Below are positions 248 to 28,835 of a stretch of DNA of 28,835 nucleotides, one piece after another. Positions within the stretch are counted from its first letter, which is position 1; the number at the start of each line of letters is the position of its first letter. The translations under genes were made by a program, and so were the position numbers. The notes under the pieces are model-generated. The model saw only the letters and a list, made by a program, of their open reading frames with translations, did no database searches and was not told the DNA's origin. Source of the stretch: a virus; the IMG/VR virus record IMGVR_UViG_3300032006_000060, positions 1 to 28,835 of that record; one strand, 5' to 3'.

Positions 248-264
248 CTCTTTCCTAAACTTCT

Positions 265-288
265 GGGGCCTCGCGGCCCCATTTTTTT
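265..288 (+). terminator. Rho-independent terminator after the P/Q/T-rich gene
   Basis: GGGGCC (265-270), a TCGC loop and GGCCCC (275-280) form a perfect 6-bp GC stem, followed by A and seven T. The first G of the window is the first base of this stem. Confidence 0.9.
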
Positions 289-2076: not shown

Positions 2077-2079
2077 GCT

Positions 2080-3347: not shown

Positions 3348-3366
3348 CAACTTATAGGTAAAGAAA

Positions 3367-5314: not shown

Positions 5315-5318
5315 GTTT

Positions 5319-5432: not shown

Positions 5433-5437
5433 AAAAT

Positions 5438-5485
5438 AAGCCTAGAGTATATTGTCAGAATTCTGACAGTACTCTAGGCTTTTTT
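5438..5485. terminator. Strong bidirectional terminator
   Basis: The 12-bp perfect arms 5438-5449 and 5470-5481 enclose an inner perfect palindrome TGTCAGAA/TTCTGACA (5453-5468). Six T follow on the + strand, and CTTATTTTT follows on the - strand. It ends rightward early transcription and leftward transcription of the small terminase gene. Confidence 0.92.
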
Positions 5486-5529
5486 AAAGTTCTTACCGGC
5501 ATCCTTTTTTAGAAAACCCACATCCGAAA

Positions 5530-7818: not shown

Positions 7819-7820
7819 AT

Positions 7821-8015: not shown

Positions 8016-8041
8016 AATCTAACGATTCGGAAAGGAATAAT

Positions 8042-11200: not shown

Positions 11201-11537
11201 ATTGAGAGCTCAACTTCTAGGGGTCGCATGGCCCTTTGAAGATTCAGATCTCCTGGAGTTTGAGATTATTGCGGGTGTATCTAATAAGATGGCAGATCTA
11301 GATAATGTAGTGAAGCCTGTGTTAGATACATACCAATATATCTTTGAAAAGTTTAATGACAATAAAGTTTATCACATAACATTAGATAAACATATAACAA
11401 ATAAGGGTAAAGAATATCTCTATGTTAAAGTAGAAAAGTGGATAGACTCTTTACCATTAACAATAGTAAACGATAAAGAGTTATTAGAAAGGACAATTAA
11501 TTATGAGTTACAAGCAGACAGCGTGTCCAAAGTGTGA
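11094..11537 (+). CDS. Holliday junction resolvase, RusA-like
   Basis: A 147-residue RusA-family enzyme, which cuts four-way junctions as a dimer. The N-terminus KPLSANQMTYRNK followed by YIQYQNELRAQL is the usual RusA opening. The catalytic acids appear as ADLDNVVKPVLD (D68, D70) and FNDNKV (D89). The spacings 2 and 19 are the same as D70, D72 and D91 of E. coli RusA. K74 matches the conserved Lys. The likely role is to resolve replication and recombination intermediates before packaging, the job done by endonuclease I in T7. The first 107 bases overlap the exonuclease gene out of frame, and the last 35 overlap the primase-helicase start. No better start downstream keeps the family N-terminus. 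Confidence 0.85.
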   Translation: MKILKHTFKIKPLSANQMTYRNKAIKQIKYIQYQNELRAQLLGVAWPFEDSDLLEFEIIAGVSNKMADLDNVVKPVLDTYQYIFEKFNDNKVYHITLDKHITNKGKEYLYVKVEKWIDSLPLTIVNDKELLERTINYELQADSVSKV

Positions 11538-13119
11538 TTCATCAGATGCATTTACAATTTATGAAGACGGTGCATACTGTTTTTCATGTCAATATTCAAC
11601 TAAGAAAGTAAATAATATGAATGACTTAGAACCTGTTGCTAAACCTAATAGCAGCATAACACTCGATGAAATCCATGAGTTAAATAGTTTTGCAATTACT
11701 TCTCGTGGTATAAGTAAACAAGTAATAGATCACTTCGGAATTAAGATGGCTGTAAATCCTGACGGTTCCGGTGGTTCACATTTCTATCCTTACACTAGCG
11801 AAGGTAAAGTGATTGCATTTAAAGAACGTAAGTTACCTAAAAGTTTTATAGCACATGGTAGCTTCACTAATATAGAATTGTTTGGTCAAGCAGTTAGTAC
11901 CGGTGGTAAGACACTTGTAATAACTGAAGGCGAACTAGATGCATGTGCTGTAGCACAATGTTTCTTAGATAAATATAATAGAATCTTTCCTGTCGTATCG
12001 ATTCCAAGTGCATCAGGTTGTAAGGTTGTACTTGAGCAGAGAGAATGGATTAGAAAGTTTGAATCCGTAATATTATTCTTTGATAAAGATGAAGCTGGTC
12101 AAGCAGCAGTACAGAAAGTTGCTAAGATAATTGGTGCTGGTAAAGTTAAAGTAGCTAAGCTATTAGAAAAAGATCCCTGTGATCAGCTACTAAAGCATGG
12201 CTCTAAGAGTTTATTACAAAGCTACTGGGATGCAGAAACCTGGTCACCCGCTGGTTTAGTAATGGGTGAATCAATATGGGAACAGTTTCAACAGCGACAA
12301 AGAACTAAGTCAAGACCTTATCCTAAATGTTTAGATGGATTAAATCAAAAGCTAAAGGGTATAAGACATGGTGAGATTACTTTGTTTACTAGTGGCACTG
12401 GCTCAGGTAAATCTACTATCGTTAAAGAAGTTGTATTAGATCTATTAAAAGATAAAGAAAATAAAGTAGGTTTAATATCTCTTGAAGAAAGTGTAGGTGA
12501 TACAGCTGAGAAGTTTATTGAGATGGCACTGCAACAAAGGCTAGACCATTCAGAAGGTATGATGCTATCACAGGCTGAACTAAGACATGGCTTTGATACT
12601 GTATTTAAAGATGAGCGTTTAGTTTTGCTAGACCACCAAGGTTCTGTTGGAGATTCAACATTAACAGATAAGATAGAGTACATGTGTTTAATGGGTTGTA
12701 AGTATTTAATCCTAGACCACATAACAATCGCAGTTTCTGAAGGAGCTGAAGGTTTATCTGGTAATGAAGCAGTCGATAAAGTAATGAGTGACTTACTTAA
12801 GATTGTAAAGAAACATAACATATGGTTGTGTTTAATATCACACTTAAGGAAAGCTCCTGGAGGTGGTGCTTCTTTTGAAGAAGGTAAGCTAGCATCTATT
12901 GATGATATAAAAGGTAGTGGTTCTATCAAACAAATATCATTTGACATAGTAGCATTTGCTAGAAACCTAATCGCTGATAATGAAACTGAACGTAATACTA
13001 TTAAGTTTAGAGTACTGAAGTCTAGGTTTACTGGGCTAACAGGTGCAGCAGGTTCAGCGGTATATAGTAATAAGACGGGGAGACTAACAGCTACTGAAAG
13101 TATTTTTACGGAGATCTAA
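11503..13119 (+). CDS. Bifunctional DNA primase-helicase, T7 gp4-like
   Basis: A 538-residue replicative enzyme. The N-terminal zinc-binding domain has C8-x2-C11 and C26-x2-C29 and selects priming sites. The TOPRIM primase domain has ITEGELDA (E142) and FFDKDEAG (D194, D196). The RecA-like helicase has Walker A SGTGSGKST (K303), the catalytic-Glu motif SLEES (E328/E329), Walker B YLILDH (D405) and a downstream DDIKGSGSIKQ motif. It lacks the long acidic C-terminal tail of T7 gp4 and ends TESIFTEI, so polymerase contact may differ. AGAAAGGA precedes ATG 11503, which lies within the resolvase gene. The stop overlaps the dCMP deaminase start (TAATG). Confidence 0.95.
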   Translation: MSYKQTACPKCDSSDAFTIYEDGAYCFSCQYSTKKVNNMNDLEPVAKPNSSITLDEIHELNSFAITSRGISKQVIDHFGIKMAVNPDGSGGSHFYPYTSEGKVIAFKERKLPKSFIAHGSFTNIELFGQAVSTGGKTLVITEGELDACAVAQCFLDKYNRIFPVVSIPSASGCKVVLEQREWIRKFESVILFFDKDEAGQAAVQKVAKIIGAGKVKVAKLLEKDPCDQLLKHGSKSLLQSYWDAETWSPAGLVMGESIWEQFQQRQRTKSRPYPKCLDGLNQKLKGIRHGEITLFTSGTGSGKSTIVKEVVLDLLKDKENKVGLISLEESVGDTAEKFIEMALQQRLDHSEGMMLSQAELRHGFDTVFKDERLVLLDHQGSVGDSTLTDKIEYMCLMGCKYLILDHITIAVSEGAEGLSGNEAVDKVMSDLLKIVKKHNIWLCLISHLRKAPGGGASFEEGKLASIDDIKGSGSIKQISFDIVAFARNLIADNETERNTIKFRVLKSRFTGLTGAAGSAVYSNKTGRLTATESIFTEI

Positions 13120-13553
13120 TGGATAAACAACAAAGATACGATGAGTTATATTTAGATATAGCTCAGAGAATTAGTGAGATGTCTCACGATACTGACCATA
13201 AAGTTGGAACAGTAATCGTTAAAGATAATAATATACTTGCCTTTGGATTCAATGGTATGCCAGCTGGTATGTCTAATGAATGCAAGCATCCTAATGGTAG
13301 CACGCTACCTGAAGTTATACATGCAGAAGCTAATGCAATATGTAAGCTAGCTAAAAGTACAGGGAGTTCGGAAGGTGCTACATTATATAGTACTCTTTCA
13401 CCCTGTGTAGAATGCGCTAAACTCATAATGCAAAGTGGAATAAACAGAATTCTTTTTAGAGAAACGTATAAAGATGAAGCAGGTATATTGTTACTACTTA
13501 ATAATAATAAAGAAGTGAAAGGAGTAAAATGGAGGAGCAGCTTAACTACTTAA
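13119..13553 (+). CDS. Deoxycytidylate (dCMP) deaminase
   Basis: A 144-residue Zn-dependent deaminase that converts dCMP to dUMP. The Zn and catalytic motifs are intact: HAE (H68, E70) and PCVEC (C96, C99). The substrate-pocket signature GFNGMPAGMSNEC is typical of dCMP deaminases. It would feed dUMP toward dTMP by the host or phage route. It also competes with the proposed dCMP-modifying TS-family enzyme for dCMP, a combination also found in T4. It is coupled to the helicase by TAATG and overlaps the RNA polymerase start by 25 bases. Confidence 0.9.
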   Translation: MDKQQRYDELYLDIAQRISEMSHDTDHKVGTVIVKDNNILAFGFNGMPAGMSNECKHPNGSTLPEVIHAEANAICKLAKSTGSSEGATLYSTLSPCVECAKLIMQSGINRILFRETYKDEAGILLLLNNNKEVKGVKWRSSLTT

Positions 13554-15718
13554 AGCATAAGATAACTAAAGCGAAAGCTCATATTGCTTGTAGTCTTTTA
13601 AAAGAAACATCTTTAGAAGATCTTAAAGCATACCTAGTATTCTCAATGGATACTATACAACAACACTTTGCTCGTAATAGTATGAGAGGAAACAAATCAT
13701 ACCAAGGTGAAGCGAATCTTACGCACTTAAGCGTAGCGATTGGTACTCATATCTTAACAGAAATAAAATATTCTAATGAGGAGGACGCACCTTGGGATTG
13801 GTTTAGACTTCGAGTTATGATGGGGGATTTATTCTTAGAACCTTTCTATCAGACACATCAAATTAATATAGGTAAGACTAGGGATAATACATTTATTCCT
13901 GTAGAATCTTTAGACCGTAGTCTTAAGAGAAGTCGTGCACATTATATTGTAGTACCTGAGAAGTGGGATCTACTTGTGCCAGAAGGAAGTGAGAATTTAT
14001 TAAGAGGTACTGTCTTTGAAAAGCCGGAACCAATTAATTCTTTAATGCAACCGACTGAGAGACCTGTAATAAAAGGATGGACACATGAAAGAAGTAAAGA
14101 GTTTAAACCCTACCTAGCTAACGGCTTTATTAAAAGCATGAATGTGTTACAACAAACCGAATGGAAAATCAATACCAAAGTTAGAGATGTTTTACTTCGT
14201 AACCGAAAGAAAATATTAAATCAGTATAAAGATTTTCCTAAGAAATATAAATCAAAGATAATAGAATTTGATTTAACACTAGCACGATCTGAATTGATAG
14301 GTGACCAACCATTTTATCAGTATGTAGAAGCAGATTACAGGGGTAGAGTATACTACACTACACCGTTCTTAAACTTCCAGGGTAATGATTTAGCCAGAGG
14401 CCAAATGCTTTTTGCTAAAGGTAAACCAATGACAGACGCAGGATTAAGAAGACTTAAGATTCATATAGCTTGCTGCTATAATGAAACTTATAGTAAAGAT
14501 AATCTTCCTGGATGGTTAACAACTAACTACCTTCCTTACTTAAAGGATGAAGAGTTAGATGATATATCTGTAGATAAGATGACGTTAGAAGATCGTGAAG
14601 CATGGACCGATAATAATATAGAGAAGCTATTAGTTATAGCTGATAGAGAAGTGATCGATCCTAATGCAGAAAAACCTATTAGTTTATTAGCGAGTGTCTT
14701 AGAAATTAAAGATGCTTTAGATAAAGAAGAATATATTACTTACCTTCCTATTCCAATTGATGGTTCTAATAATGGATGGCAACATCTATGCGCAATGTCT
14801 AAGGACAAAGAAGCTGGAGAGTTAGTTGGGATTGTACCACAGGATATACAAAAAGATTTTTATGTACAGTGTGCTAAAGATTTAATCAAGAGAGTTCCTG
14901 ATTGGTTTGAAGAAAGACAGATGCCTATGAAACATATACGTAAAGGTATAGCTAAACGCGGTTCCATGACTCGTGCGTACAGCGCAGGAGCACAGAAGAT
15001 CGCAGAGAATATGTATCTTGACTGTCATGTAGAAGGGTATCTTAGGAAGTATAATATAACCGAAGAGGACTGTGAATTACTTGCTAAGCATTTAATCAAA
15101 GCAATAGATGAAGTTTGTGCAGGTCCATTACAAACTATGAAGTTCTTACAAAAGATAGCAGAAGCTGAGATAGCCTCTGAATATTCTAAGAATATCAAAC
15201 AGAAATCTATAAGATGGACAACACCTTCTGGGTTTCCAGTTATCTATGAAGCATTCGTTGAGAATGAATTCAAAGAGAAAGCTATCATCAGCTGTAGTGA
15301 AAGGGAAGTTAAACCTATTCTAACTAAAGAAGATGGAAGCAAAGAGGAAACAGATACAATAAGAATACAACACGTCGGTAAAGAACCAACAGACAAACCA
15401 AAGATAAGATCTTTTATGTCTGGGATCTCACCTAACTTCGTGCACTCTATGGATGCTGCACATATGGCTAAGGTTATAGCTAAGTGGGAGGGGGATTTTG
15501 GTGCAGTACACGATTCATTTAGTGTACATGCCTGTGATGTAGATGAATTATTAGAACTTATTAAAGAAGAGTTCATAACAATGTATAGTTACTCTAACTT
15601 CTTTGAAGTCATTGAGAGAATGCTAGTAACGAACCCGGATAATTTTAACCACAACCAACCTAAGCTAGGCAGCTTAGACATTAGAGAGGTAAAGAACAGT
15701 GACTACTTCTTCGCGTAA
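13529..15718 (+). CDS. Single-subunit T7-like DNA-directed RNA polymerase
   Basis: A 729-residue phage RNA polymerase, shorter than T7's 883 because the N-terminal promoter/RNA-binding domain is reduced. The catalytic landmarks are complete: DYRGRVY (D269-R273), motif A PIDGSNNGWQH (D411), motif B AKRGSMTRAYS (K476, Y484) and motif C VHDSF (H661, D662), corresponding to T7 R425, D537, K631, Y639 and D812. SGISPNFVHSMDAAH (631-645) is another family hallmark. ATG 13529 follows AAAGGAG. Unlike T7, where this gene comes first, it is nearly last in the rightward block, after the replication genes. Something else (host polymerase or the putative second polymerase at 16016-20239) must transcribe the earlier genes. 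It probably serves middle or late promoters. Its promoter sequence could not be identified here. Confidence 0.96.
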   Translation: MEEQLNYLKHKITKAKAHIACSLLKETSLEDLKAYLVFSMDTIQQHFARNSMRGNKSYQGEANLTHLSVAIGTHILTEIKYSNEEDAPWDWFRLRVMMGDLFLEPFYQTHQINIGKTRDNTFIPVESLDRSLKRSRAHYIVVPEKWDLLVPEGSENLLRGTVFEKPEPINSLMQPTERPVIKGWTHERSKEFKPYLANGFIKSMNVLQQTEWKINTKVRDVLLRNRKKILNQYKDFPKKYKSKIIEFDLTLARSELIGDQPFYQYVEADYRGRVYYTTPFLNFQGNDLARGQMLFAKGKPMTDAGLRRLKIHIACCYNETYSKDNLPGWLTTNYLPYLKDEELDDISVDKMTLEDREAWTDNNIEKLLVIADREVIDPNAEKPISLLASVLEIKDALDKEEYITYLPIPIDGSNNGWQHLCAMSKDKEAGELVGIVPQDIQKDFYVQCAKDLIKRVPDWFEERQMPMKHIRKGIAKRGSMTRAYSAGAQKIAENMYLDCHVEGYLRKYNITEEDCELLAKHLIKAIDEVCAGPLQTMKFLQKIAEAEIASEYSKNIKQKSIRWTTPSGFPVIYEAFVENEFKEKAIISCSEREVKPILTKEDGSKEETDTIRIQHVGKEPTDKPKIRSFMSGISPNFVHSMDAAHMAKVIAKWEGDFGAVHDSFSVHACDVDELLELIKEEFITMYSYSNFFEVIERMLVTNPDNFNHNQPKLGSLDIREVKNSDYFFA

Positions 15719-15966: not shown

Positions 15967-16015
15967 TAAAAAACCCCTAAGAGTATCATAAGATATTCTT
16001 AGGGGTCTTTTTTTA
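15967..16015. terminator. Bidirectional terminator between convergent gene clusters
   Basis: CCCCTAAGA (15974-15982) pairs with TCTTAGGGG (15997-16005), with an inner TATC/GATA. The + strand continues TCTTTTTTTATT; the - strand continues after its stem with TTTTTTATTT. It serves both the rightward replication block and the leftward late cluster, whose last stop codon lies at 16016-16018. Confidence 0.93.
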
Positions 16016-19000
16016 TTAGCTTGTAGAGAAATCGATATTATTTGACCAGCTTGGACCTAGCGCTCCTCTAACTTCTCTCTTACCTTCTCTAACATTTTTC
16101 TTAGAAGCTGCTACACTTTCATCAATTTTAATATGACGGTTGATTGTTTCTAATAGCTTAGCTATCTGCGGACCTGATAATTTTCCAGTACTATTTAACT
16201 GTGCTATAATATCTTGAGCTACATCTTTTTTATTCTTAGCTAATAGACTTGCTTCTGATTCACCAGTAATTGCAGCAAGATTATAAGCATCCATACGACC
16301 CATTTTAATTGCACCAAGTTCTTGTTGTATATCAATTGCCGTATCAAATGCTACCCTACCTAAACGCTTGTTCCAATCTTTTAAAGTTTCTTTACCTCTT
16401 CTATAAGTTTTCCCTCTAAAAGTAGCTTCAGTTGCATCTCGATTCCATTTCAATCTTATATTTTTCTTAAGGAATCTAACTAAATTCTTATAAGGGTGGA
16501 TCGGACCATACTTATTTTGATACTGATCACCTGTAAATAATTCATAGAACTTTGCAAAGTCTTGCTGCATATCATATACTTTATTATCTTTACTAAGTTC
16601 TTCTATTTTCTTTTTACGTAAACCATAATACCAATTAAAGATTTTATCTGCAACATTCTCATTAATAATACTGTCTCGATGAATTTGATTTGCTATTTGT
16701 TTAACTGCTTTTAGACTTCCTGTATCTCCTATAAAAGCATCATAAACTTGAAAAACAAATGGTCGACCTACAATTTCTTCTTTACCATCTTTTATTCTTT
16801 TCATCTTTGCACCATTATTAAGTGCAGCTTTTTGAATCTGATCCCAGTAGTTTGTAGTTTTAAATTCAGCGTTTCCGTATTTATCTCTGCCTGTAAACTT
16901 AACATTATTAAAGACGCCCTGAGTTATATCAGGATCATATCCTTGTATCATAGCAGCTAAAATTCTACTTACTGTCCAGCCACCGATCTCATCTTCACCT
17001 TCAGTCCACCTTCTTATTGCCTGAGCCGAGGCTTCTCCTTTATAACTCCAGTCTTTTATAAGTCCAGATTTAGGTAAAGCATCTTGATCTCCTTCTTGTT
17101 TAGTAATTTTATATTGCATATCTTTATCTGGAGTAAACTCCATTCCAGCAGAGCGTACTGTTATTCCTGTAGGTTGATCCCATTCAATCATCTCATTTAA
17201 GAGTACTGATTGCCAAGCAATACTTTTTATAGTATCCATTGTATCAATTGTATGACCATCCATATTTGCATAGATAGAATCAACCATTAAGTTATGCAAG
17301 AAATCTACGACAGAAGGTAGACCTAACTTATTATTTGCAGCAGCTTCCCTAATCTTTGGATTTAAATCAACTGTCTTTTGAACATGCTTCTTTAATAGCA
17401 TTTTATTTTGGCCATATCCCATAGTCATAGGAGATTTCTTTAAGAAATTTGTTCTATCTTTAAGAGCTTCTGTTAATATAAAACCTAAAGCATCTGCTGA
17501 ATTACTACCAACCTTTCCTCGCCAAGCATCGCTCTGATTTAATCTACCGAACTCATCTATCATAGTATTAGCCATAGCATCTCTTAGATCTATGTATTCA
17601 TCTGATGACATTCTTTCAGCAAGTGGGATGGAAGTTATCATATCACCACGTTTAGTCATATTTAAACTACCAAACTGTGCACCCATTGTTAAAGTTCCAT
17701 GTGTCTGACCATCCATTTCCCATGACTGAGTGTCTACAAACTGCTGACCATTCTTTTTAGCATCTGTATACTTTGCTAAAGCCATTAAGTAATCACCTTG
17801 TTTTATACCTTCATGTTCATACTTAGCTAAGTAAGCTCTCAATGGTTCGCTTATAGTATTCCCTTTAAACTGTTGTATTAATGCACTTCTAATTTGACGG
17901 CCTTGTCCACTTGTTGCATTTTTAATTTGACTTAAGTAAGAACCAATTACTTTCTTATCAATTGATTGGTTGAATCTTATTAACTCATTTCCCCATGCTA
18001 CATACTGATTCCATAATCCTTCGTTAGGATTTTCTCTGGCCTGTACTTCTTCTTCTGCAAAGCGTCGTAGTCTTTCTTCAGTAGGCATACGACGACCTCT
18101 ATCTCTTTTCCAACTATAAGTATTTGATATTTTCGGATCTTCAAACAGACGAGCATACATTCCTTCTTGCCAAGCTTCTTCTAATAAACTATTAGTACCA
18201 GGTTTCCAGATAAATTTGTTTTGTCCGCTAACCACGTTCCTAATCATTGAATGTGATTGAGGATTATAAAGAGTTTGTTGTGCATGCATTCTGCCAGTTA
18301 ATAACTGCAGTGCATAAGTTAAATACTTAAGTCCTCCTCCATCATATCTTAGCATAGCCTCTGCAATATTTACAGACTTCTCTCTTTCAAGTCTAAAGAT
18401 TGTTCTAGGTTGATAGTTATCTGCAACCTTTTGTGCTACATTTATTTCTTCTTGAGATACTGCTTTAGGATCAGCAGTTCGTCGTCTTTTAAGATCATCT
18501 ACTCTTTCATGTAAAGCATTCTTTTCACTTTGTAAATCATCAAATTTACTTCTACCGATATTAAATATATCTGCATAATAATTTCTTTCATTATTAGGTT
18601 CTACATACTGATCATACCTAGCTTCATTAGGATCCTGTTGAATTCCACCACCATGTGCTAAGGCATATGCATAAAGACCTGCACTTAATGTTGATCTATT
18701 AACATCATTATCCATACCAACAAGATTTTGATTAGCCATTGCATTGAAAGCCATCGTCGTATCACCAATCTCTTTAGACATCCAGGTTGTCATTCTCCTG
18801 GTAATCATCCCACCTTCACCAGCAATTACACCACCGTTAGTTGAAAATTTCTGAGGCTTAACTTCTGTTGCATCAAATAAACCTGTAAACAATCGATACA
18901 TATCTTCATAGAGACTAGCTCCCTTAGGAGTAATAACATATTCTACTGTTAACTTATCTGTACCTCCTGCCTTAGGTCTTCTTAGTAAACCATTTATTGG

Positions 19001-20239
19001 ATCAGCTTCTGCTGAGTTAGCTTTGTAATATAACTCTTTAGCTCTTGAACCTAAATGAATAAAGACTTCTTTATTTATATCTTTTATATCATCCATATAA
19101 GCATCAGGATCTGTTTGTCCTGTAGTTAATGCTTTAAATCTCATGTATTCTCTATAAATATCTTTGCCAACCTGTTCAAGGCCATCACTCTTTCTAACTA
19201 CATATTCTTTTACTTGCTGTTCTGCCTTAGGATCATTCTCCCTAGGTCTAGGAACTTTAGTATCAGCATCTTCATCAATTATTATATCTGCTACTTGCTG
19301 ATCTAGATCTGTTGCAAACATAGAAGTAACAAAAGATTGTTCAGCATTCAATACCATAATGTTAGAGAGCTCAGGATCAACAGCTATCTGTCCTTTTGTA
19401 TCTAAGTAACCTGCTCCTAGAATATCTAATACAATATTAGTTAAGTTAGTATTTAAAGTATTATCACTCTTACGTATAGGAGCTGTTGCAGATTCAACTT
19501 CTTCCGTACCAAATATAAAACTCTCTCTTACTCCTGGGGTTGGAGTTCCTATTCCAGAGGGCTTTGCGGCTTGTGCTACTTTCCAATTCCCACCTATAGT
19601 AGGATCGAAGAGAGCTGCACGCTGAGCTTGGTTTACCTGTATGTTCATGTTCTGTGCTGTTCGTGCAGCAGTTGTTCCCCACCTAGATAATGCATCAATA
19701 AAAAGTTTACCTGCTCGGCCAGTAGCTCTCATCTCTAAAGCAGATTCTTCAAGAACTTTACGTGTTAAAGCAGGTCTCTTTATTTTTAAACCAGCTGATT
19801 CATACTTTCCTAATAATCGATTATCTATTTTTAGTTGTTGTAACTTCTCATCTTGCGCAGCCTGGTCATCACCTATTCTTGCAGCAAAAACAGGTTCACT
19901 TAATCTTGCAGCTAATTCTTCTGGTGATAAGTTGGCAGTTGCATCTACTTGTTCAGCAACAGGAACCTCCTCTAAACCAGTAGTCGGAGCAGTACCTAAG
20001 TCAGGAAAAGCTGCAGCCACTTGCTCAGCGGCTTTCATTCCTTCAAGCTCACCTTCTAATTGTTGTTGTACGTTCGCACCCTTTGCTCTAAGTCGATCCT
20101 CCTCAGTTCTTGCTAGAAGATCTTCATGAGTTCTCATTCCGATATTCTTTGCTAAGCTTGCTATTCTTTTTCGTTCTTGTAATACAGCAGAGGGTGTTGT
20201 GCTTACCCCTACCGCTCCTGGTATATTAGTTTGTACCAT
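16016..20239 (-). CDS. Putative virion-associated single-subunit RNA polymerase (1407 aa)
   Basis: The last gene of the late cluster. The central part carries all the landmarks of T7/N4-type single-subunit RNA polymerases in order. They are a GR motif with Asn-Pro-Gln downstream (LLTGRMHAQQTLYNPQ, R650; compare T7 GRVYAVSMFNPQ); motif A EMDGQTHG (D843); motif B KKSPMTMGYGQ (K934, Y942, same K-x7-Y spacing and MT as T7 K631/Y639); and motif C FQVYDAF (D1167; T7 HDSF). Spacings are close to those of T7 and N4 polymerases. N-terminal (about 1-600) and C-terminal (about 1200-1407) regions are large, mostly helical and unassigned. In phage N4 such a giant polymerase is packaged and injected to transcribe early genes. 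The neighbours here are ejection-type proteins, so packaging is likely but is inference. ATG 20239 follows AAGGAGA on its strand, 11 bases after the upstream gene. Confidence 0.82.
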   Translation of the reverse strand: MVQTNIPGAVGVSTTPSAVLQERKRIASLAKNIGMRTHEDLLARTEEDRLRAKGANVQQQLEGELEGMKAAEQVAAAFPDLGTAPTTGLEEVPVAEQVDATANLSPEELAARLSEPVFAARIGDDQAAQDEKLQQLKIDNRLLGKYESAGLKIKRPALTRKVLEESALEMRATGRAGKLFIDALSRWGTTAARTAQNMNIQVNQAQRAALFDPTIGGNWKVAQAAKPSGIGTPTPGVRESFIFGTEEVESATAPIRKSDNTLNTNLTNIVLDILGAGYLDTKGQIAVDPELSNIMVLNAEQSFVTSMFATDLDQQVADIIIDEDADTKVPRPRENDPKAEQQVKEYVVRKSDGLEQVGKDIYREYMRFKALTTGQTDPDAYMDDIKDINKEVFIHLGSRAKELYYKANSAEADPINGLLRRPKAGGTDKLTVEYVITPKGASLYEDMYRLFTGLFDATEVKPQKFSTNGGVIAGEGGMITRRMTTWMSKEIGDTTMAFNAMANQNLVGMDNDVNRSTLSAGLYAYALAHGGGIQQDPNEARYDQYVEPNNERNYYADIFNIGRSKFDDLQSEKNALHERVDDLKRRRTADPKAVSQEEINVAQKVADNYQPRTIFRLEREKSVNIAEAMLRYDGGGLKYLTYALQLLTGRMHAQQTLYNPQSHSMIRNVVSGQNKFIWKPGTNSLLEEAWQEGMYARLFEDPKISNTYSWKRDRGRRMPTEERLRRFAEEEVQARENPNEGLWNQYVAWGNELIRFNQSIDKKVIGSYLSQIKNATSGQGRQIRSALIQQFKGNTISEPLRAYLAKYEHEGIKQGDYLMALAKYTDAKKNGQQFVDTQSWEMDGQTHGTLTMGAQFGSLNMTKRGDMITSIPLAERMSSDEYIDLRDAMANTMIDEFGRLNQSDAWRGKVGSNSADALGFILTEALKDRTNFLKKSPMTMGYGQNKMLLKKHVQKTVDLNPKIREAAANNKLGLPSVVDFLHNLMVDSIYANMDGHTIDTMDTIKSIAWQSVLLNEMIEWDQPTGITVRSAGMEFTPDKDMQYKITKQEGDQDALPKSGLIKDWSYKGEASAQAIRRWTEGEDEIGGWTVSRILAAMIQGYDPDITQGVFNNVKFTGRDKYGNAEFKTTNYWDQIQKAALNNGAKMKRIKDGKEEIVGRPFVFQVYDAFIGDTGSLKAVKQIANQIHRDSIINENVADKIFNWYYGLRKKKIEELSKDNKVYDMQQDFAKFYELFTGDQYQNKYGPIHPYKNLVRFLKKNIRLKWNRDATEATFRGKTYRRGKETLKDWNKRLGRVAFDTAIDIQQELGAIKMGRMDAYNLAAITGESEASLLAKNKKDVAQDIIAQLNSTGKLSGPQIAKLLETINRHIKIDESVAASKKNVREGKREVRGALGPSWSNNIDFSTS

Positions 20240-20250: not shown

Positions 20251-23200
20251 TTAACTTTCAAATACATCTGCAATTTTTTGTGAAGCCCATCTATTAGTCT
20301 GGTTAAAAGGACCAGTTAATGGTCCTGTCTTAAATAATTTATAAAGACCTGGCTGTATACTACTGTCTGTAATAGCTCCTTCAACTAATTGTGTAGCACC
20401 TGTCGCTGCTCTTGTTAAGTTAGATATAGCAGCAGCTTCTCCAGATATTCCATGAAAAACTTCTTCTACTATATTACTAGAAGATGTTTCATAGATAGGA
20501 AAGAAAAAGTTTAAAGGTCTCTCACCTACGCCTAGCATACCTGATGCACCTAAACCTCTCTGTAGTTTTTCCATATGATCTAAGTAAGGACTGGACTTTC
20601 CATACTTTAATAAATCTTTTAAATGTTGTGCAGCAAATCCTAATGCAATCATCATTGTCATAACAGCAAAAGCATTATACTTCATTGCTGGTGTACCACG
20701 TCTAACGTAATCACCCCACAGTCTAGGAATATGATTTGCTGTAAAGGTTGCAATGAAACCTTGGAACTGTGTGAACATTGCTAAGTGTGGATTCTGATAG
20801 AACAACGGTCTGTTCGCAGTACCAGGTAATGCAACAGCTTCATTAATAAAATTGAATTCAGCATTAGCAAATATTCTTTCAAGCCTCTCATTATTTCTTC
20901 TCATATTAAGAATATATTCTTCTCTTGTTTGATCAGCTGGTTTTGTAATAGGTAAACTATCTATCTCTAAAAGTTCTTCTATATTAATTCCTAAGTTTCT
21001 TAGATGCTCTTCTGATTCTTGTACTTCATTATCATATACCGCACCACTATTTCTTTGTTCTCTTATAATACCTAAGTGATGCATAATAAAATCAGCAGCT
21101 TGCGCACCCCTTAAGTTACGATTAAGATCTGTCCATTGCTGTAAGAATATTATTCTAAAATATTTATCTAGAAAATATCTTGAAGCAAATGTATTTTCTG
21201 TAGCACCTGTAGTTTGCGCTGCACCTGTATCCCAAGTAAAATAACCTAATCTTTTTAAACGTGCTTGTGCTTTTTCTTTAGCAAGCTGTCCTTCAACTGA
21301 TGTTGCAAACTTAAAGTTGGGTGTTGCGGTTGTCATTGTTTTCCAGATACCATTTCCAAATTCTACAGCAGTATCTTTTATAACATTATTTATTTGTTCA
21401 GGACTAAGCGCTCTTACAATCATCATGTACTCTACAAAAGAAGAGATCGTAGCCATCGGTAAACCTGCAAGGGTTGTCCATACTAATAGATTCTTTTGTA
21501 AGTTAGCGACTTCAGGACTTGCTATCTTCTTATAGTTACCTGATTCACCATCAAGATAATCTTGTATGAAAGCAGCATGAGCATTTCCTTCTTCTCTAGT
21601 TATCTCACCGCTTTCTATTGCCTGCTCTATACCTTCATTAAGAATTTCATTGTTATCCCCTAGAAATCTTTGATAAGTAATATATCTTGCAGCAGACTTA
21701 GCAGCATTAGAAATATTTATAAACAAATCCTGTTCCATCCACTTACTTAAGACAGGATCGTCTGCCATATTTAATCTTCTTTCTCTATGTGCAGAAGGAA
21801 TATGAACTCCTCTCCCAACTTCAAATAAAGAATCTTCATCTACAAGTTCATCATTATCTAGGATAGCTTGTGTTAATTTCTTAGCATCATCTCTAGTATA
21901 TCCTTTGTCCATCAGATCTCTTATAAATCCTTCCCGATCTTTTTCAATCTTAACTTTATCTATCGATCTATATCTTCCAATGTAGTTTTGAATAAAACCA
22001 ACACCAAACTCTTTGCCTGTATCACTCTCTCTATTTGGTGTACCATCAGCATTAAAGTAATGAAGTCTTGCATTTTTTTTATCTTTAAATAATCTGTTAC
22101 CAAATGTGTTAAGGCGTTTTGTTATATTAATATAGAAGTCTCTATTATTTCTTATCACTTCAGGGAATTTATATTCACCAGTACTAGGATCTCTAGCATC
22201 AAAATCTACTTCATCAATAGGAGTTTCTTTAATTATTTGAAAGAAATCATAGATATGCTTAGAGATTTGTAGTTGATTAATTGTTTTGTATCCCAATGCT
22301 TTTGCTACAGAAGCTGCACTAAAACTTGCCATATCAGGATTGCCATCAGGTAAAACTCCAACTTGAACTTCGCCTAATTGATTTTTAAAGAATGCTAATG
22401 TATTGTGCTTAAAGTTTTCAAGAGCTTCCCCTGAAAATACAGGGTGTAAGAAAGCACCAAGTCCTGCTGAATACTTTCTAACGCTAGGTGCTTTAAGATT
22501 GGACTCTCTAAAGAATTGGACCGGAGCTCCCTTCCATAATATAGGGAAAGCTCTAGCAGCATCTTTAATCTTTTGCCAAACATCTCTAGCCTTAAGTTGT
22601 TTCCTACCTAACTGTTTCTTCTCATCAAAGCTAGTTACTTCTTGTAGTTCTCTAATCCTTGCTTCAGTATTCTGTCTTACTTCATCTGAAATCCGAGGAT
22701 CTGCTAATTGTAATTGAAGAGTTTCTAGCTCAGCTCTAGCTGTAGCTTCTCTATGCTGTGCATCTTTTTTAAGATCAGTAAAATTACTTTGGATTGTTGG
22801 AGCAGGTCCATGTGCATAATGCTGTTTTATATCACCAACCTTTACACCTTCTGGTAGAGTATCACCTTCTTCCCAGTAAGTATGTAGATGTGCATCCTGT
22901 TCTTTTTGCATTCTACTTTCTTCAGACTTTCTCCAATCTTCAGCTGGAGATTTTCTAACTTGAACATCTGTCCATGCTCCTACATCATAAGCTGTTCCAG
23001 GTACTGAGAATGCAGAACCTAAAGTTCCACCTGCTATGAAAGCATTAACCATTCTATTGTGAAGTTCTACTGTATCAAATGGCCGGTCACTACCTAATGT
23101 CGCTGCCATGTATTGAGTAAGTTCCTGTCCTACTTCTGTTGAGGATTCTATACCAAATCCAACACCAGCTCTAGCAGCAAAAGCCCTTAAGATATTTCCA

Positions 23201-24636
23201 TACTTCAATTGTTCCTTAGCAACATTAGCTGCGTTACCTACTAGCTTAGCAGCTTCCATTCTTGTCATCCTAGCTACAGCACTTCTTGCTTCAGCAATTG
23301 TCATACCCGCCGCTACATTTACCGGTTTATTTTTAAATGCTTCAGCCATTGCTTCACGATACCTAGGACTTAGCAACGTACCTGTCATCTTACCCATTAA
23401 TAAATGAATACCTAAACGATCAAGGACTGCCATTGTAACACCACTAGCTACTGCTAAGGTTGCACTTTTATTATCGCCTTCCATATCATTCCAGGTCATA
23501 CCAGTATACATCGAGACAGGTGCCATCATACTTGCGCCAGCTAATCTAGCCATACCTACACCGGTTGCCGAAGCTAATGCAGCTCCTCCAGTCATTGGAG
23601 ATAACAAAGCGCCTGCTGCTGTAACTCCCATGTAAGGAAGTGAGACAGCTAGCATATTTCCAGCATACTCAAAGAATCCCCCGACACCATCTACATCCCA
23701 TTCATTATCAATCACCTTACCATAAGGATCTAGAACAGGTTTAAGTATATTTAATTTTAACTCAGGCTTAGTTGCAAGGTATTCTCTTTGTCTTTTAATA
23801 CCTGCTTCTCCTAGATTTTCTAACCAATTAAATCCAGTCTTCTCACCGATTAATTCAGCAGCTCCATATAAACTTTCTATAACACCGGTCCATCCTACAT
23901 CAAAAGAATCAGACCAAGGATGAAGTGATTTGTTATCAATCGTTCTATCCGCATGCCTTTGCTGCACACGATAGTTAGAATACTTGGCAGCTTGTGATAG
24001 CCTCCAAGCATAAGCACCTTCTGATTCTCCAGGTTGTCTTGGAGCTTTTAACTTAGCAAGTTCAGTTTCATTTAAAGCTGCCTTTGCAAACTCGGTATCA
24101 TACCACTGTTCAGATTTAATTGAATCATTTAAAGCAATAGCAGATTTTTCATAATCATTTAAAGATTGCTCAGAGATATTTCTTTGAGATCTCTTTGCCA
24201 TACCATATTGATACTTATCAATCTCTTCTTCAGAACTATACCTGCTTAACTTATTAATACCATAACGGCTAAGTGTTTCTGTAAAGTCTCTACCATACTC
24301 ATCAGTTAATCTAACAAGCTGTCGACCATGAACATCTAACTTAGGAGAACCATCTGGATTTGTAAGATACTTTACATTATTATATCCAAATTGACTTGCA
24401 AGACTTTGGATTTGTTTGTATGCTTCTAATCCTCCAGGAGTTCCAGGTTTAAAGTAACCTGATTCCATAAGTCTATTAATTTCTGGAGCGCTTAAACCTT
24501 CTATCCTAAGTAACTTACCTTCTTCATTTACTAATGTATCTCCATCAATAAATGTATGACCACCACTTCCTGTTATAGGTTTAGGTACTTCAAGAGTAGG
24601 TATATCTATCCTAGGAAGATTACTAAAGTTTGCCAT
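20251..24636 (-). CDS. Large internal virion/ejection-type protein with N-terminal SNase-like domain (1461 aa)
   Basis: The first 130 residues look like a staphylococcal-nuclease (TNase) fold: FIDGDTLV (D31, D33), LLRIEGLSAPE (R44, E52) and DVHGRQLVRL (R105), matching SNase DGDT, R35, E43 and R87. The Ca2+ ligand D40 is replaced by S49, so activity may be lost or altered. Residues about 320-400 are rich in Gly, Ala and Met with hydrophobic stretches (EYAGNMLAVSLPYMGVTAAG), compatible with membrane insertion on ejection. The rest is mostly helical with coiled-coil parts. The end contains a conserved-looking block (FTQFQGFIATFTANHIPRLW; MKYNAFAVMTMMIALGFAAQ) that I associate with internal proteins of marine podoviruses. 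It sits between the lysozyme-bearing protein and the putative polymerase, 9 and 11 bases away, in one late unit. It was probably assembled in the capsid and injected. Confidence 0.75.
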   Translation of the reverse strand: MANFSNLPRIDIPTLEVPKPITGSGGHTFIDGDTLVNEEGKLLRIEGLSAPEINRLMESGYFKPGTPGGLEAYKQIQSLASQFGYNNVKYLTNPDGSPKLDVHGRQLVRLTDEYGRDFTETLSRYGINKLSRYSSEEEIDKYQYGMAKRSQRNISEQSLNDYEKSAIALNDSIKSEQWYDTEFAKAALNETELAKLKAPRQPGESEGAYAWRLSQAAKYSNYRVQQRHADRTIDNKSLHPWSDSFDVGWTGVIESLYGAAELIGEKTGFNWLENLGEAGIKRQREYLATKPELKLNILKPVLDPYGKVIDNEWDVDGVGGFFEYAGNMLAVSLPYMGVTAAGALLSPMTGGAALASATGVGMARLAGASMMAPVSMYTGMTWNDMEGDNKSATLAVASGVTMAVLDRLGIHLLMGKMTGTLLSPRYREAMAEAFKNKPVNVAAGMTIAEARSAVARMTRMEAAKLVGNAANVAKEQLKYGNILRAFAARAGVGFGIESSTEVGQELTQYMAATLGSDRPFDTVELHNRMVNAFIAGGTLGSAFSVPGTAYDVGAWTDVQVRKSPAEDWRKSEESRMQKEQDAHLHTYWEEGDTLPEGVKVGDIKQHYAHGPAPTIQSNFTDLKKDAQHREATARAELETLQLQLADPRISDEVRQNTEARIRELQEVTSFDEKKQLGRKQLKARDVWQKIKDAARAFPILWKGAPVQFFRESNLKAPSVRKYSAGLGAFLHPVFSGEALENFKHNTLAFFKNQLGEVQVGVLPDGNPDMASFSAASVAKALGYKTINQLQISKHIYDFFQIIKETPIDEVDFDARDPSTGEYKFPEVIRNNRDFYINITKRLNTFGNRLFKDKKNARLHYFNADGTPNRESDTGKEFGVGFIQNYIGRYRSIDKVKIEKDREGFIRDLMDKGYTRDDAKKLTQAILDNDELVDEDSLFEVGRGVHIPSAHRERRLNMADDPVLSKWMEQDLFINISNAAKSAARYITYQRFLGDNNEILNEGIEQAIESGEITREEGNAHAAFIQDYLDGESGNYKKIASPEVANLQKNLLVWTTLAGLPMATISSFVEYMMIVRALSPEQINNVIKDTAVEFGNGIWKTMTTATPNFKFATSVEGQLAKEKAQARLKRLGYFTWDTGAAQTTGATENTFASRYFLDKYFRIIFLQQWTDLNRNLRGAQAADFIMHHLGIIREQRNSGAVYDNEVQESEEHLRNLGINIEELLEIDSLPITKPADQTREEYILNMRRNNERLERIFANAEFNFINEAVALPGTANRPLFYQNPHLAMFTQFQGFIATFTANHIPRLWGDYVRRGTPAMKYNAFAVMTMMIALGFAAQHLKDLLKYGKSSPYLDHMEKLQRGLGASGMLGVGERPLNFFFPIYETSSSNIVEEVFHGISGEAAAISNLTRAATGATQLVEGAITDSSIQPGLYKLFKTGPLTGPFNQTNRWASQKIADVFES

Positions 24637-24645: not shown

Positions 24646-27600
24646 CTATGGTTGTAGTGATGTACCAATATCTGCAATCTCATTTTCTATTATTGATTCA
24701 GCAAATAAACCGAACGGTGTGTATGCAGCATTCTTTTTTTCTTTAGCCATCTTCATAAATACTTCTCTCCAAGTTTTCTTTTTCTTAGGATCATCTTGAA
24801 AATCTTCGTGAGCTTCCTCCTTCCATTGCGCAGCAATCTCTGCCCAGAATATATCAGATTTAGCAGCAGTATATACTGATTCAATTCTCTGTTGGATTCT
24901 TACTAGATCTTCATTAGTCATAGTTCTTTCTTTACCATCGACTGTAGCTTTTACAGGAGAAGGTAGTGGACGCATCTTACCATCTTTATCTTTGTACATC
25001 ATATTCTCAAGACGAAGTTTGATAGTTGCATCTTCTAAGAAAGGAATAAGAGAGCTATGTAATACTGCATCTTCGTCATCTTCTAAAAGTTTCTGATTAG
25101 CAGCAATCAATGCAGCATAAGCATCATCTAATGGCTGAAGAAATTTACCAGGTGGGATGTCTCTATCAAATAACCATTGAGCAGTCTCACCAGCTATTGC
25201 ATCAGGTATAATACCTGGAGTACTTCCTCGACCACTACGGTATACAGTCTTCTTATTATCTTTAGATCCTGTAGTATGCTTATCTCTTGCTGTATAAATA
25301 CCAGTTAAAACTTTATTAACTTGTCCTATTGTTTCAAGAGATACATCAATCACATTCTCATCTGACCAACCAGACCCAACCCTTAACTCAGGCTTAAGAC
25401 CATTAATATCAAAAGACCAGTAAGTAATATCATCACCTGCAGTATTCTTTACCTTAAATTCATAGGCCATCATTTGTCCTAGCTCTTTATGGTATTGCAT
25501 TTCTTTTTTACCTGTAGATCTAGGAGATGCCCCTATTCGTATAAGTTTAGAAGGATCTTTTGTTTTCTTAAATTCAGCGAGAGAATCTTTCGTATACAAA
25601 TGAGAGTTAGCCAGTATCCATTTATCCATCTGAGCATTCTTCGCATCAACTCTCTTAAGATATTGCTTAGCAACAAAACCAATACTACCATCATGATTAT
25701 AACCTAAAGCTCTTGAAGCTAAATAAACTGCGATCGCTCTACCTATTTCTCCACCATCTATGAGATCTCCGAATAGGAAATCAAACATTTGTCTGGTCTT
25801 AGATACTTCAGGATCATTATCATCTTTGTTTTCTTTTTCATCTAAAACTTTCTGACCCTGCTCTGAGTCTAGCTTAGCTTTTATTTCAGCTTCAGTTGTA
25901 TTGTCAATTTTACTACCAAGTTTTGCTAATTTATTTTGAGATTCTGTTTGTACTTCAGCTGCTTTAGCATCAATACTTTTTTGTATCTCAGCTATCCTTC
26001 CTTTAATTGCTTCTTTATATTCTTCAGGAAGACTAGGATCATTAAGTCTTGCTTTCAATTCATCAATCGTAGCTTGCTCATCTGCAATTAAATTACGAAT
26101 CTCAGCATCTTTAATCCACTGAGGCTCTCCTCCAAACTGTGGAGCAACATCTTTATAAGTATCAAGTATCTTGTGTCCAGATTTCGCAGCATCTAATTTC
26201 TCTTTTGCTTTCTTTACATATGCTTGCTTCGCTTCAAAGTCAGGATCATTTGGGTTAGATAGCATAGCTGTATTCACAGCATCTTTATATTCTGCCTCTA
26301 GCTCTGCTATATTTCCTAGCTCAAGGTTTTCTCCTATTGTATAAGGATTAGCTTCTAGCATTGTCGGAACAAATCCGCTAGGTCGATAGTCTTCTCTACC
26401 ATCTCCAACTGTAATCTCTTCTCCTGGCATTACAGGTATTTCTCCAGTATCATGTTCACCAAAATTATAATCTGTAGGAGGAGGAGGTATGTTATAGGCA
26501 GGAGAACCTGCTATTTCATCTTGAGCCATTTGATCATATGCACTTGTAAATGTAGGATCACCTATAGGATTATCACCAGGATGTTTACCAGCATAAGGAA
26601 TATTTATAGTATCTAATAAATCACTATGAGGAGGTATTGCTCCTTGTCCAGAACCAATTGATCCATATAGATTTTCTATAAGGTCTTCAGACTTAGGTAC
26701 ATTCTGCATTACATTAGGATCTATTCCTGCTCCTCCTAGATCATGTGTATCTAAATGATAATTTGTAGATGGATTAAAGCTATCAACATTCTGAAGAATC
26801 TTTTTATCTAACTCTTTCTGAAATCCACGATCTACTCTGCTAGGAATTGGTACACTTGGAACTGATGCACTTGAAGTACTAGGAACATCAGGATAAGAAT
26901 AAGGATATTTATATGTTATACCAGCTTCATAATCCCAAGGATTAAATACACTTGGTTCTACAACATCTTCTATCTCTTGCACATCTCCTGGTACTAATGC
27001 AGCAGGAGGAATAATCTTTTCAGGTTCTGTATATACATCTGGAACAGGTCGCATAGCTGTAGGCGCATAACCTAAGTCATCACCATCTCCTCCACCTGCA
27101 CCTGATCTATACACAAGATTCTCTGCTCCAGGAATTACATATCGATTTAAGTATGCTTCAAGTTCATCATCCTGTAAGTCAGCAAGATAACGTGGAACTT
27201 CTTGTCCCATAAATGCATGGACTACTCCACCATCTTGCATTCCTCTTTTCTTTAACTCTTTATCATAATTAAATTTAGCTACAGTATTTTCTTTACCGCG
27301 GTGATTAGGAAAGAGCCAATTAAAAGGATTGAAAGGACTGGGATTAACTTCTGGTATTTCAACCTTTGGTTTATTTAATTCTTTCCATTGAGCTTGAGAT
27401 GCTTCTATAGCTTGCTGTAAACTTGGATCTATTTCATTACTTGGTTTAGGAATAGGAAGATCTGGCATTGCTGATTGAGGTGTTATAAAATTTTGAAAGT
27501 CCACTACTCTTGTAGGAGATGTCTTATACCAATCAGTTTCACTATGAACTTTATCAGGAGCATGCTTAAAGAAATTATATTGTGCTTGCTGTCTAGCCTT

Positions 27601-28323
27601 AGCCCAGTCTCCAGCTTTAACAGCCTTCATTGTTTCTAGCATTGCAGCTTGATTAGGCTGCCCCATTTGAAATGCCATATTAGCTAAACCAAATTGTTGT
27701 TTATCAGATAATTTTCTCCAAGTATCTGTCCCTACATTTCTTTGAGCTGCTGCAAGAGCTATAGCAAAATCCTCTTCAAACTGTCTGTTAGCTGCAGCTT
27801 CATCTGCGAATGGACCTTGCACTCCTCCTTGACCATACTTTTCAAAAGTGTATTCGTCTATTGGTAGTAAATGCCCGATGCCAGAAGTAGGTTCCCATTC
27901 TTCTTTACGATAAGGTTTTTTAGTAGGAGAATATACATCAAGTCTTACTCCACCTTCTCTGCTTTTTAATAAGTCTTTCCATTCTTTTAATAGCTTACCT
28001 TCACTAGCATACACAGGAGGTGCCTGATCAGGACTCATATTACCATCTTGAATCTCTCTACCTATATCATTCATCTGTTTAATCTGTGGTCCAAATAAAT
28101 CAGTAGCTTCTTTGTTAACAACGAATTCTCCAGGAGTAAGCCAAGCCGGTACAGTATCAGATCCCTTTGGATCGCCTGGATGATTCTCAGCTAATCCTCC
28201 AACAGCTTCATACTGAGGAATACCAGAGTTCATAGGAGGAACCTCTAAGTTATTACCATCAGTTTCAATTTCCAAAGATCTCATGTTTCCATACCGATCC
28301 TTTTGAGTAGTTTTATATTTCAT
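24646..28323 (-). CDS. Large virion protein with phage lysozyme (GH24) domain (1225 aa)
   Basis: Residues about 110-280 are a T4-type lysozyme: SREGGVRLDVY (E123), EPTSGIGHLL (T146, H151), then LANMAFQMGQ and a late SPTRVVDF (TPNRAKRV in T4). The catalytic Glu and Thr are kept, and the position of T4 D20 is not. Before it lies GSDTVPAWLTPGEFVVNKEA (residues 54-73), a box common in tail/tape-measure-type phage proteins. The middle (about 280-700) is Pro/Asp/Tyr-rich and probably extended. About 690-860 is charged coiled coil, and the C-terminus is globular. The likely role is local digestion of peptidoglycan during DNA entry, as done by T7 gp16 and other virion lysozymes, rather than lysis. 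GGAG-type signal AGGAG precedes ATG 28323. Confidence 0.8.
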   Translation of the reverse strand: MKYKTTQKDRYGNMRSLEIETDGNNLEVPPMNSGIPQYEAVGGLAENHPGDPKGSDTVPAWLTPGEFVVNKEATDLFGPQIKQMNDIGREIQDGNMSPDQAPPVYASEGKLLKEWKDLLKSREGGVRLDVYSPTKKPYRKEEWEPTSGIGHLLPIDEYTFEKYGQGGVQGPFADEAAANRQFEEDFAIALAAAQRNVGTDTWRKLSDKQQFGLANMAFQMGQPNQAAMLETMKAVKAGDWAKARQQAQYNFFKHAPDKVHSETDWYKTSPTRVVDFQNFITPQSAMPDLPIPKPSNEIDPSLQQAIEASQAQWKELNKPKVEIPEVNPSPFNPFNWLFPNHRGKENTVAKFNYDKELKKRGMQDGGVVHAFMGQEVPRYLADLQDDELEAYLNRYVIPGAENLVYRSGAGGGDGDDLGYAPTAMRPVPDVYTEPEKIIPPAALVPGDVQEIEDVVEPSVFNPWDYEAGITYKYPYSYPDVPSTSSASVPSVPIPSRVDRGFQKELDKKILQNVDSFNPSTNYHLDTHDLGGAGIDPNVMQNVPKSEDLIENLYGSIGSGQGAIPPHSDLLDTINIPYAGKHPGDNPIGDPTFTSAYDQMAQDEIAGSPAYNIPPPPTDYNFGEHDTGEIPVMPGEEITVGDGREDYRPSGFVPTMLEANPYTIGENLELGNIAELEAEYKDAVNTAMLSNPNDPDFEAKQAYVKKAKEKLDAAKSGHKILDTYKDVAPQFGGEPQWIKDAEIRNLIADEQATIDELKARLNDPSLPEEYKEAIKGRIAEIQKSIDAKAAEVQTESQNKLAKLGSKIDNTTEAEIKAKLDSEQGQKVLDEKENKDDNDPEVSKTRQMFDFLFGDLIDGGEIGRAIAVYLASRALGYNHDGSIGFVAKQYLKRVDAKNAQMDKWILANSHLYTKDSLAEFKKTKDPSKLIRIGASPRSTGKKEMQYHKELGQMMAYEFKVKNTAGDDITYWSFDINGLKPELRVGSGWSDENVIDVSLETIGQVNKVLTGIYTARDKHTTGSKDNKKTVYRSGRGSTPGIIPDAIAGETAQWLFDRDIPPGKFLQPLDDAYAALIAANQKLLEDDEDAVLHSSLIPFLEDATIKLRLENMMYKDKDGKMRPLPSPVKATVDGKERTMTNEDLVRIQQRIESVYTAAKSDIFWAEIAAQWKEEAHEDFQDDPKKKKTWREVFMKMAKEKKNAAYTPFGLFAESIIENEIADIGTSLQP

Positions 28324-28332: not shown

Positions 28333-28835
28333 CTAGTTCTTGTATTCAATCGTCTCTTTCTTTTCTATCTTAACAGACTTGTTATTTGAGAGTGGACCAG
28401 TCATTCCACCATGTTCTTTGTGCTGTACGTTACCACCTTTATTAAAAGGAATGCTATCATCTTTTGAAATTTCGTCCCATACTAGATCTTCTGGTTCTAT
28501 ACCAAACATACTATCTTCTAAAAAGTCTTCGTAGTCAGGACCTCTATAGCCATCCCAAGCACCAGCGCCATGTCCTATAGGAAAAGTATACATACCTTCA
28601 CCAGCATACTGCGGGGACAGAGGACCAACTCCTCCACCTTTATTAAACAAACCAAACATCTTAGCACCGAATAAAGCGGGGAGAGCCCAAGGTGCAGCGG
28701 CTGCCATCATACCTGGAGCTAATCCTGCAGCAGCAGGAGCAGCAGCACCAGTAGCTGTTAGTCCACCCATATAACTAGCTGGCGCAGCACCTGTACTTGC
28801 TAGCTGAGCTGCTAATTTAGGTGCAGCACTACCAG
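28333..28835 (-). CDS. Virion-type Gly/Ala-rich protein (partial, start beyond the window)
   Basis: A frame with stop at 28333-28335 stays open to the right edge. An internal ATG at 28770 exists, but upstream in-frame codons (…AAPKLAAQLASTGAAPASY) have the same Ala/Pro-rich character, so the gene starts outside. The visible 167 residues comprise an Ala/Gly/Pro-rich hydrophobic segment (ALPALFGAKMFGLF), a KGGGVGPLSP box, an acidic central part (DYEDFLEDSMFG) and a second NKGGNVQHKEHGG box before a Lys-rich end. Repeated KGG boxes and the junction of 9 bases to the lysozyme gene suggest a structural or ejection protein of the same unit. No specific family can be named. Confidence 0.7.
   Translation of the reverse strand, partial: GSAAPKLAAQLASTGAAPASYMGGLTATGAAAPAAAGLAPGMMAAAAPWALPALFGAKMFGLFNKGGGVGPLSPQYAGEGMYTFPIGHGAGAWDGYRGPDYEDFLEDSMFGIEPEDLVWDEISKDDSIPFNKGGNVQHKEHGGMTGPLSNNKSVKIEKKETIEYKN

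Follow-up and report, generated by a model that had tools for sequence, protein, structure and literature searches.

The stretch of DNA analysed here, referred to as the window, is a 28.8-kb virus record from IMG/VR (IMGVR_UViG_3300032006_000060, positions 1 to 28,835), and the gene in question (16016..20239, ATG to stop) encodes a 1407-residue protein that we consider likely to be a short, divergent virion RNA polymerase (vRNAP) of the phage N4 type. The gene lies on the minus strand, a point on which the preliminary description of this DNA was silent. The plus strand carries a replication block in which PHROG and Pfam searches identify thymidylate synthase, a family A DNA polymerase and a toprim/DnaB-type helicase-primase, and near the end of this block lies the gene for a T7-like RNA polymerase (RNAP; 13529..15718, plus strand; PHROG 414, 1.5e-101; Pfam RNA_pol, 6.1e-59), which is convergent with the putative vRNAP gene. 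A hairpin scan places a terminator-like hairpin (15973..16006, strand unspecified) between the two convergent blocks. The minus strand holds, besides the gene for the 1407-residue protein, two other giant proteins and a small open reading frame (ORF).

Catalytic motifs, profile kinship and predicted fold

Homologues were collected by gene position, taking as the positional homologue the large ORF that follows the T7-like RNAP gene on the opposite strand. In the first relative this protein is 93% identical to that of the window and the T7-like RNAP is 98% identical to the window's. As bait we used three T7-like RNAPs, from the window, from this relative and from Roseobacter phage CRP-7. Of the 100 loci confirmed, the best 80 entered the analysis; 63 of these best 80 have a complete RNAP gene, with a long downstream ORF in 49 and a convergent arrangement in 48 of the 49. 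With three further loci and CRP-7 added, duplicates removed (49 reduced to 45) and five fragments of less than 900 residues left out (L025, L039, L043, L053 and L084), there were 45 distinct proteins of at least 900 residues. Of these, 36 are linked by BLASTP (the window's protein included), and outside the 36 stand nine proteins in two clusters, six CRP-7-like and three around locus L080. Identity among the 36 ranges from 18 to 94% (residues 240–1300); four are incomplete (L019, L020, L038 and L056) and the complete members are 1162–1426 residues long. The L080 cluster matches the 36 (2.1e-16), and its alignment retains the motif A aspartate, the motif B lysine and Tyr-Gly, the motif C aspartate and an asparagine 17 residues later.

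The preliminary description had picked out in the 1407-residue protein the catalytic residues of single-subunit polymerases, and all are present where it placed them (G649-R650, N659-P660-Q661, D843-G844, K934-x3-M938-T939-x2-Y942-G943 and Y1166-D1167-A-F), with the spacings that it gave (R to D 193, D to K 91 and K to D 233). The TxxGR-type box and NPQ box (residues 647–667; 18239..18301, minus strand like the other motifs) align with GRM..YNPQ of N4, and R650 and R667 are present in 36/36 homologues and N659 in 35/36. Motif A (EMDGQTHG, residues 841–848; 17696..17719) contains the putative catalytic D843, which with G844 and G848 is kept in 36/36, while E841 is kept in 33/36. Motif B (residues 934–943; 17411..17440) has K934, M938, T939, Y942 and G943 in all 36, and motif C (residues 1166–1184; 16688..16744) has the putative catalytic D1167 and, 17 residues later, N1184, again in 36/36 and likewise in N4 vRNAP. 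D1102 and D1172 are also invariant. The corresponding residues of N4 vRNAP, located from its sequence, are R1421, D1556, K1667/Y1675 and D1948 (spacings 135, 111 and 281). In T7 RNAP the equivalent residues are D537 and K631, with R425 and D812 as those of the R box and motif C. Loss of the motifs from close homologues, named beforehand as an observation that would count against a polymerase, is not what we find, and given their invariance across 36 homologues the motif set is more than chance.

Searched alone, the window protein has no significant Pfam, PHROG (none at E 0.01) or PDB sequence match, nor did the family profile find anything significant among PDB sequences. PHROG 414 (‘RNA polymerase’), which N4 vRNAP itself matches at 5.1e-6, is matched by 13 of 32 homologues (best 7.1e-8). 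At tblastn sensitivity neither the window protein nor its homologue L082 has a match among the 50,697 phage records searched; another of the homologues does reach N4-like records, over 30 residues (60–63% identity, E 0.03–0.08), a match that is weak on its own, and two of the five N4-like records concerned name their protein virion RNA polymerase. The kinship with N4 vRNAP proposed earlier is borne out at the level of profiles. The profile of the 36 matches that of 13 Schitoviridae vRNAP domains with an hhalign E value of 1.8e-15 (probability 98.5, 720 columns), with the GR/NPQ box and motifs A, B and C in register. Control profiles against the 36 gave 0.46 (neighbour), 0.055 (PolA) and 0.058 (helicase), and a set of 66 T7-like RNAPs gave 0.016; the same T7-like set matches the vRNAP set at 7.9e-7. 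When only the catalytic half was compared the values were 1.2e-15 for the vRNAPs and 0.0018 for the T7-like set.

An AlphaFold2 model of residues 240–1300, built from 36 alignment rows, has a predicted local distance difference test (pLDDT) score of 77.6 and a predicted template modelling (pTM) score of 0.73. All of the 50 matches listed by Foldseek against the PDB are single-subunit RNAPs, T7 RNAP being first (6.8e-12) and N4 vRNAP ranking 43rd (9.0e-9) among the matches listed. VIA-align superposes the model on T7 RNAP with Z 23.8 over 521 residues (5.0 Å) and on N4 mini-vRNAP with Z 19.6 over 674 residues (6.3 Å; model residues 7–1023), the root mean square deviations being large, as in remote multi-domain models. 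D843 stands immediately after a predicted strand and D1167 in a turn between two strands, as expected for motifs A and C. The structure prediction suggested as a check yields a single-subunit RNAP fold and not a non-polymerase one: in the model, the cupped-right-hand single-subunit polymerase fold is present.

Cysteine content and the late-block neighbours

The preliminary description had called the gene late, distal and adjacent to ejection-type proteins, and this agrees with what we find. It is the last gene of the late block, as are its counterparts in relatives G004 and G007 and, likewise, gp50 at the end of the N4 late block. Upstream of it lie two giant cysteine-free neighbours, both probable ejection proteins, of 1461 residues (20251..24636, minus strand; PHROG 6958 virion structural protein, 2.1e-19) and 1225 residues (24646..28323, minus strand; PHROG 7 endolysin, 2.7e-6, residues 117–251), followed by a small cysteine-free late-block ORF (28333..28770, minus strand; 145 residues from the first ATG) whose frame runs past the window end. 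In N4, gp50 is described as one of three ejection proteins encoded in one operon (PMC12633501). The endolysin-like stretch of the 1225-residue protein may be a wall-cutting part of the ejection set.

Like these three neighbours, the 1407-residue protein contains no cysteine, for which the chance is 3.3e-9 at the frequency of the early block (62 in 4495 residues, 24 window ORFs). Across the 45 homologues there are two cysteines in total, 43 having none; the 1461-type neighbours are cysteine-free in 29/30 and the Schitoviridae vRNAP sequences, which are mostly partial, in 12/13. The 66 T7-like RNAPs, by contrast, average 14.7 cysteines per 1000 residues (9–14 each), and that of the window has ten. 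Cysteine absence and gene position together indirectly support a virion location for the 1407-residue protein.

A few further observations concern the surrounding genomes. Relatives G003 and G004 are 58,008 and 58,114 bp long, with end repeats of 77 and 55 bp respectively, and within the late block of G003 lies a gene for the large subunit of ribonucleotide reductase (L169:8945-10714; PHROG 84, 2.7e-133). In the window a lone 134-residue ORF (5530-5934, minus strand) opposes the early block; by eye we take it to resemble a small terminase subunit. A homologue of 32% identity, L200, lies on a contig (NZIO01000029.1) binned as Candidatus Pelagibacter MED605, which is only a hint as to the host.

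Hairpins in the early regions of relatives

Promoters of N4 vRNAP are hairpins with a GC-rich heptamer centred at −11 and four As near the start, and template +1C is recognised (PMC4496689). Searching N4 itself for this layout yields three hairpins of this type. Early regions (18 regions including the window's, 215 kb) and late regions (seven, 135 kb) were then scanned, with first-order Markov resamplings as the shuffles for both the signature and the hairpin cluster scans. A strict signature required a perfect stem of at least 5 with inner GC(TNNC)GC and, at N4 spacing, a T run. Seven of 18 records have it in their early regions, with 12 copies in all, every one in sense and none in antisense orientation, and it is absent from the seven late regions; the means in resampled sequence were 0 and 0.05. 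It should be noted that this signature is post hoc, since it was narrowed after the hits had been seen. A looser rule scan returned 16 sense and 24 antisense matches in the early regions and six and ten in the late ones, and is therefore unspecific. Clusters of repeated hairpins were found in four of 18 early regions (G003, G004, G011 and G012) but in 0/6 late regions, in no shuffle and not in the window; at its settings the clustering missed the promoters of N4 itself, which appear through the hairpin listing or the rule scan.

Hairpin promoters are suggested by these results in the relatives only, and the chief alternative is that the early-region hairpins are intrinsic terminators, a possibility that we take seriously while thinking it the less probable of the two and which would leave the polymerase assignment untouched. 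In favour of terminators, most of the hairpins have a GC-rich stem and then a T run, the sense orientation would be expected of terminators as well, and some of the hairpins lie within long open frames. However, a strict-signature copy stands 36–42 nt upstream of an ORF start in 6/7 records, the stems vary yet still pair, and in inner bases and spacing the hairpins are similar to the three of N4. Also against termination, G003 has further copies that keep the loop but have AT-rich stems: two stems are all A/T and another contains just one G-C pair. In G003 (L168, 20001-26225) there are five hairpins of the form AAATTTNN(TWWC)NNAAATTT with covarying inner pairs, found in the early region in sense only and nowhere else in G003, and other repeated hairpins occur in G004 and G012.

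In the window itself, the preliminary description had proposed 289-508 and 1005-1198 as stretches of single-stranded template, a proposal that fared less well: no repeated hairpin was found there. The only sense match of a relaxed scan within 1-13528 is TGGGGCC(TCGC)GGCCCCA followed by a T run (264..281, plus strand), a loose and weak promoter candidate that could equally well be a plain terminator; it has 14 nt to the C after the T run as opposed to the 9–10 expected, and it also appears in the terminator-like list. Rfam gave no match in the window, and a sigma-70 scan gave 62 sites against a shuffle mean of 68, that is, no excess. Several other elements were seen. A 16-nt palindrome, TGTCAGAATTCTGACA, lies in an early intergenic gap (window 5453-5468) and recurs at L176:14121 and in a G003 gap (25278-25634), the same in G007 and with one base changed in G003; it is possibly an operator. 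A 36-nt repeat (972-1007 and 5978-6013, 97% identity) consists of the stem AAAATACCC/GGGTATTTT with a near-identical 12-nt loop followed by Ts, and is terminator-like, yet its loop is conserved too. On the late sense strand, AGGACCA(TTAAC)TGGTCCT followed by Ts (20308-20326) lies about 70 nt upstream of the putative vRNAP start, inside the end of the gene for the 1461-residue protein.

Placement among phage polymerases and implications

The reading of the 1407-residue protein as a short, divergent N4-type vRNAP, packaged with its giant neighbours, ejected and transcribing the early genes, is supported by the predicted polymerase fold, the catalytic residues, the profile kinship to N4-type vRNAPs, the lack of cysteine and the gene position, and we hold it to be probable. 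We infer its packaging, ejection and activity, and the order of transcription. Several results weigh against it. The connection between the window protein and N4 vRNAP is seen by profile–profile comparison only: PHROG 2206 (virion RNA polymerase) is matched neither by the window protein at E 1 nor by 32 members at 0.01, phmmer with N4 gp50 misses the window protein, and the profile of the 36 misses the N4 vRNAP sequence while reaching T7 RNAP at 0.012. Motif B of the 36 (KKSPMT) is nearer to that of T7 (KRSVMT) than to that of N4 (KNPLT). The fold is nearer to T7 RNAP by score and to N4 vRNAP by aligned length and was therefore not used to choose between them. Large virion proteins without RNAP motifs in other podoviruses are also cysteine-free, so that the absence of cysteine points to ejection and not to a polymerase. 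The window has no strict promoter hairpin, and in G003 one extra ORF (342 residues) lies 3′ of the polymerase gene on the same strand.

Given that the best fold score is with T7 RNAP, the protein might instead be an active RNAP that is made in the cell and serves a later gene class as a second enzyme, without being carried in the virion. We regard this as improbable, as its cysteine-free composition is that of the ejected proteins, whereas the T7-like RNAPs have several cysteines each, and the gene adjoins those for giant structural-type proteins where the late block ends. Less probable still is an ejection protein descended from a polymerase that has lost RNA synthesis, for although the protein sits among cysteine-free ejection-type proteins and phages PA11, ICP2 and SIO1 have large cysteine-free virion proteins with no clear RNAP motifs, the catalytic residues are invariant in 36/36 homologues down to the lowest identity. 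The large virion proteins of Zobellviridae have been suggested as possible vRNAPs (PMC10747016); for those of PA11, ICP2 and SIO1 we did not adopt this, as they lack a clear set of RNAP motifs and gave no significant profile match.

The putative vRNAP resembles N4 gp50 and the Schitoviridae vRNAPs (PHROG 2206) in its catalytic motifs, its near-absent cysteine and its terminal position in the late block, in the ExDGxxxG box of the window protein and 33/36 homologues, a signature of N4-type vRNAPs (PMC10654107), and in the arginine eight residues past the NPQ asparagine and the asparagine 17 past the motif C aspartate. It differs from them in length, 1407 residues (1162–1426 in complete members) as against about 3500, which falls outside the 2,842–3,820 residues of the reference N4-type vRNAPs (PMC10654107). 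Schitoviridae are described as having genomes of 59–80 kb, three RNAP genes, a vRNAP of about 3500 residues and 17 conserved proteins (PMC7650795). The two end-repeat relatives, at 58.0–58.1 kb, lie outside that definition, and of 18 N4 proteins gp16 alone gives a match, to the T7-like RNAP; the portal of G003 belongs to the portal PHROG of N4 (1216), its major head protein not to the N4 PHROG. Judged by sequence and predicted fold, the protein would work in the manner of an N4 vRNAP; because of the length, the lack of a PHROG 2206 match and a phage group that does not fit Schitoviridae, we place it as a variant of the N4 vRNAP kind. Finding both kinds of polymerase in one podovirus had been called unexpected, but there is a precedent in N4, whose vRNAP is accompanied by a heterodimeric RNAPII (gp15/gp16; PMC4496689). 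Unlike N4, the window phage has a single-chain T7-like RNAP in place of that heterodimer, and the hairpin loop in relatives is of four bases as opposed to three.

With T7 RNAP the protein shares the single-subunit fold and motif B of the form K-x3-MT-x2-YG; the T7-like RNAPs, unlike it, are cysteine-rich, are encoded in the early block and match its profile at only 0.016. CRP-7 is the nearest isolate found, and its gp33 is similar in lying beside a related T7-like RNAP (35.9% identity), in having no cysteine and in a motif-C-like IHDAL with an asparagine 17 residues later. It is a hypothetical protein in its record, and the CRP-7 paper of 2019 predicts an RNA polymerase for ORF30 (PMC6918029). 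We treat it as no more than a possible relative, as there is no BLASTP match, hhalign to the vRNAPs gives 2.8e-4 over 42 columns and the structure prediction for its family failed (pLDDT 33.9). phiKZ-like jumbo phages (with multisubunit RNAPs) and Thermus phage P23-45 (with a tail-tape-fused RNAP) are likewise described as carrying in the virion a polymerase for their first genes, but these enzymes are akin to cellular multisubunit RNAPs and not to single-subunit ones.

On this basis the polymerase would be a late product that is packaged together with its giant neighbours, the group serving as an ejection set. It would enter the cell with the DNA and would read the early genes, probably from hairpin promoters; this would allow synthesis of the T7-like polymerase, encoded where the early block ends, and that enzyme would then read later genes. 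We lean, somewhat less firmly, towards a separate lineage of short vRNAPs outside Schitoviridae, in widespread podoviruses (possibly of SAR11-like marine hosts), which would be paired with a single-chain T7-like RNAP, would use in many members GC(TNNC)GC four-base-loop hairpin promoters in place of the three-base loop of N4, and would need no host RNAP to start. The giant virion RNAP has been described as a characteristic feature of N4-like phages that is unique among bacterial viruses (PMC7650795). The short class may have been overlooked, because a 2023 IMG/VR search for N4-like viruses dropped vRNAP relatives of less than 2,500 residues, a filter described as eliminating almost all T7-like RNAPs (PMC10654107). 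If our reading is true, the 1,160–1,430-residue form would show that the polymerase can do without the extra two thousand residues of N4 vRNAP and would offer a smaller enzyme for the biochemistry of hairpin promoters, and it would suggest a group of uncultured phages that start transcription without the host RNA polymerase.

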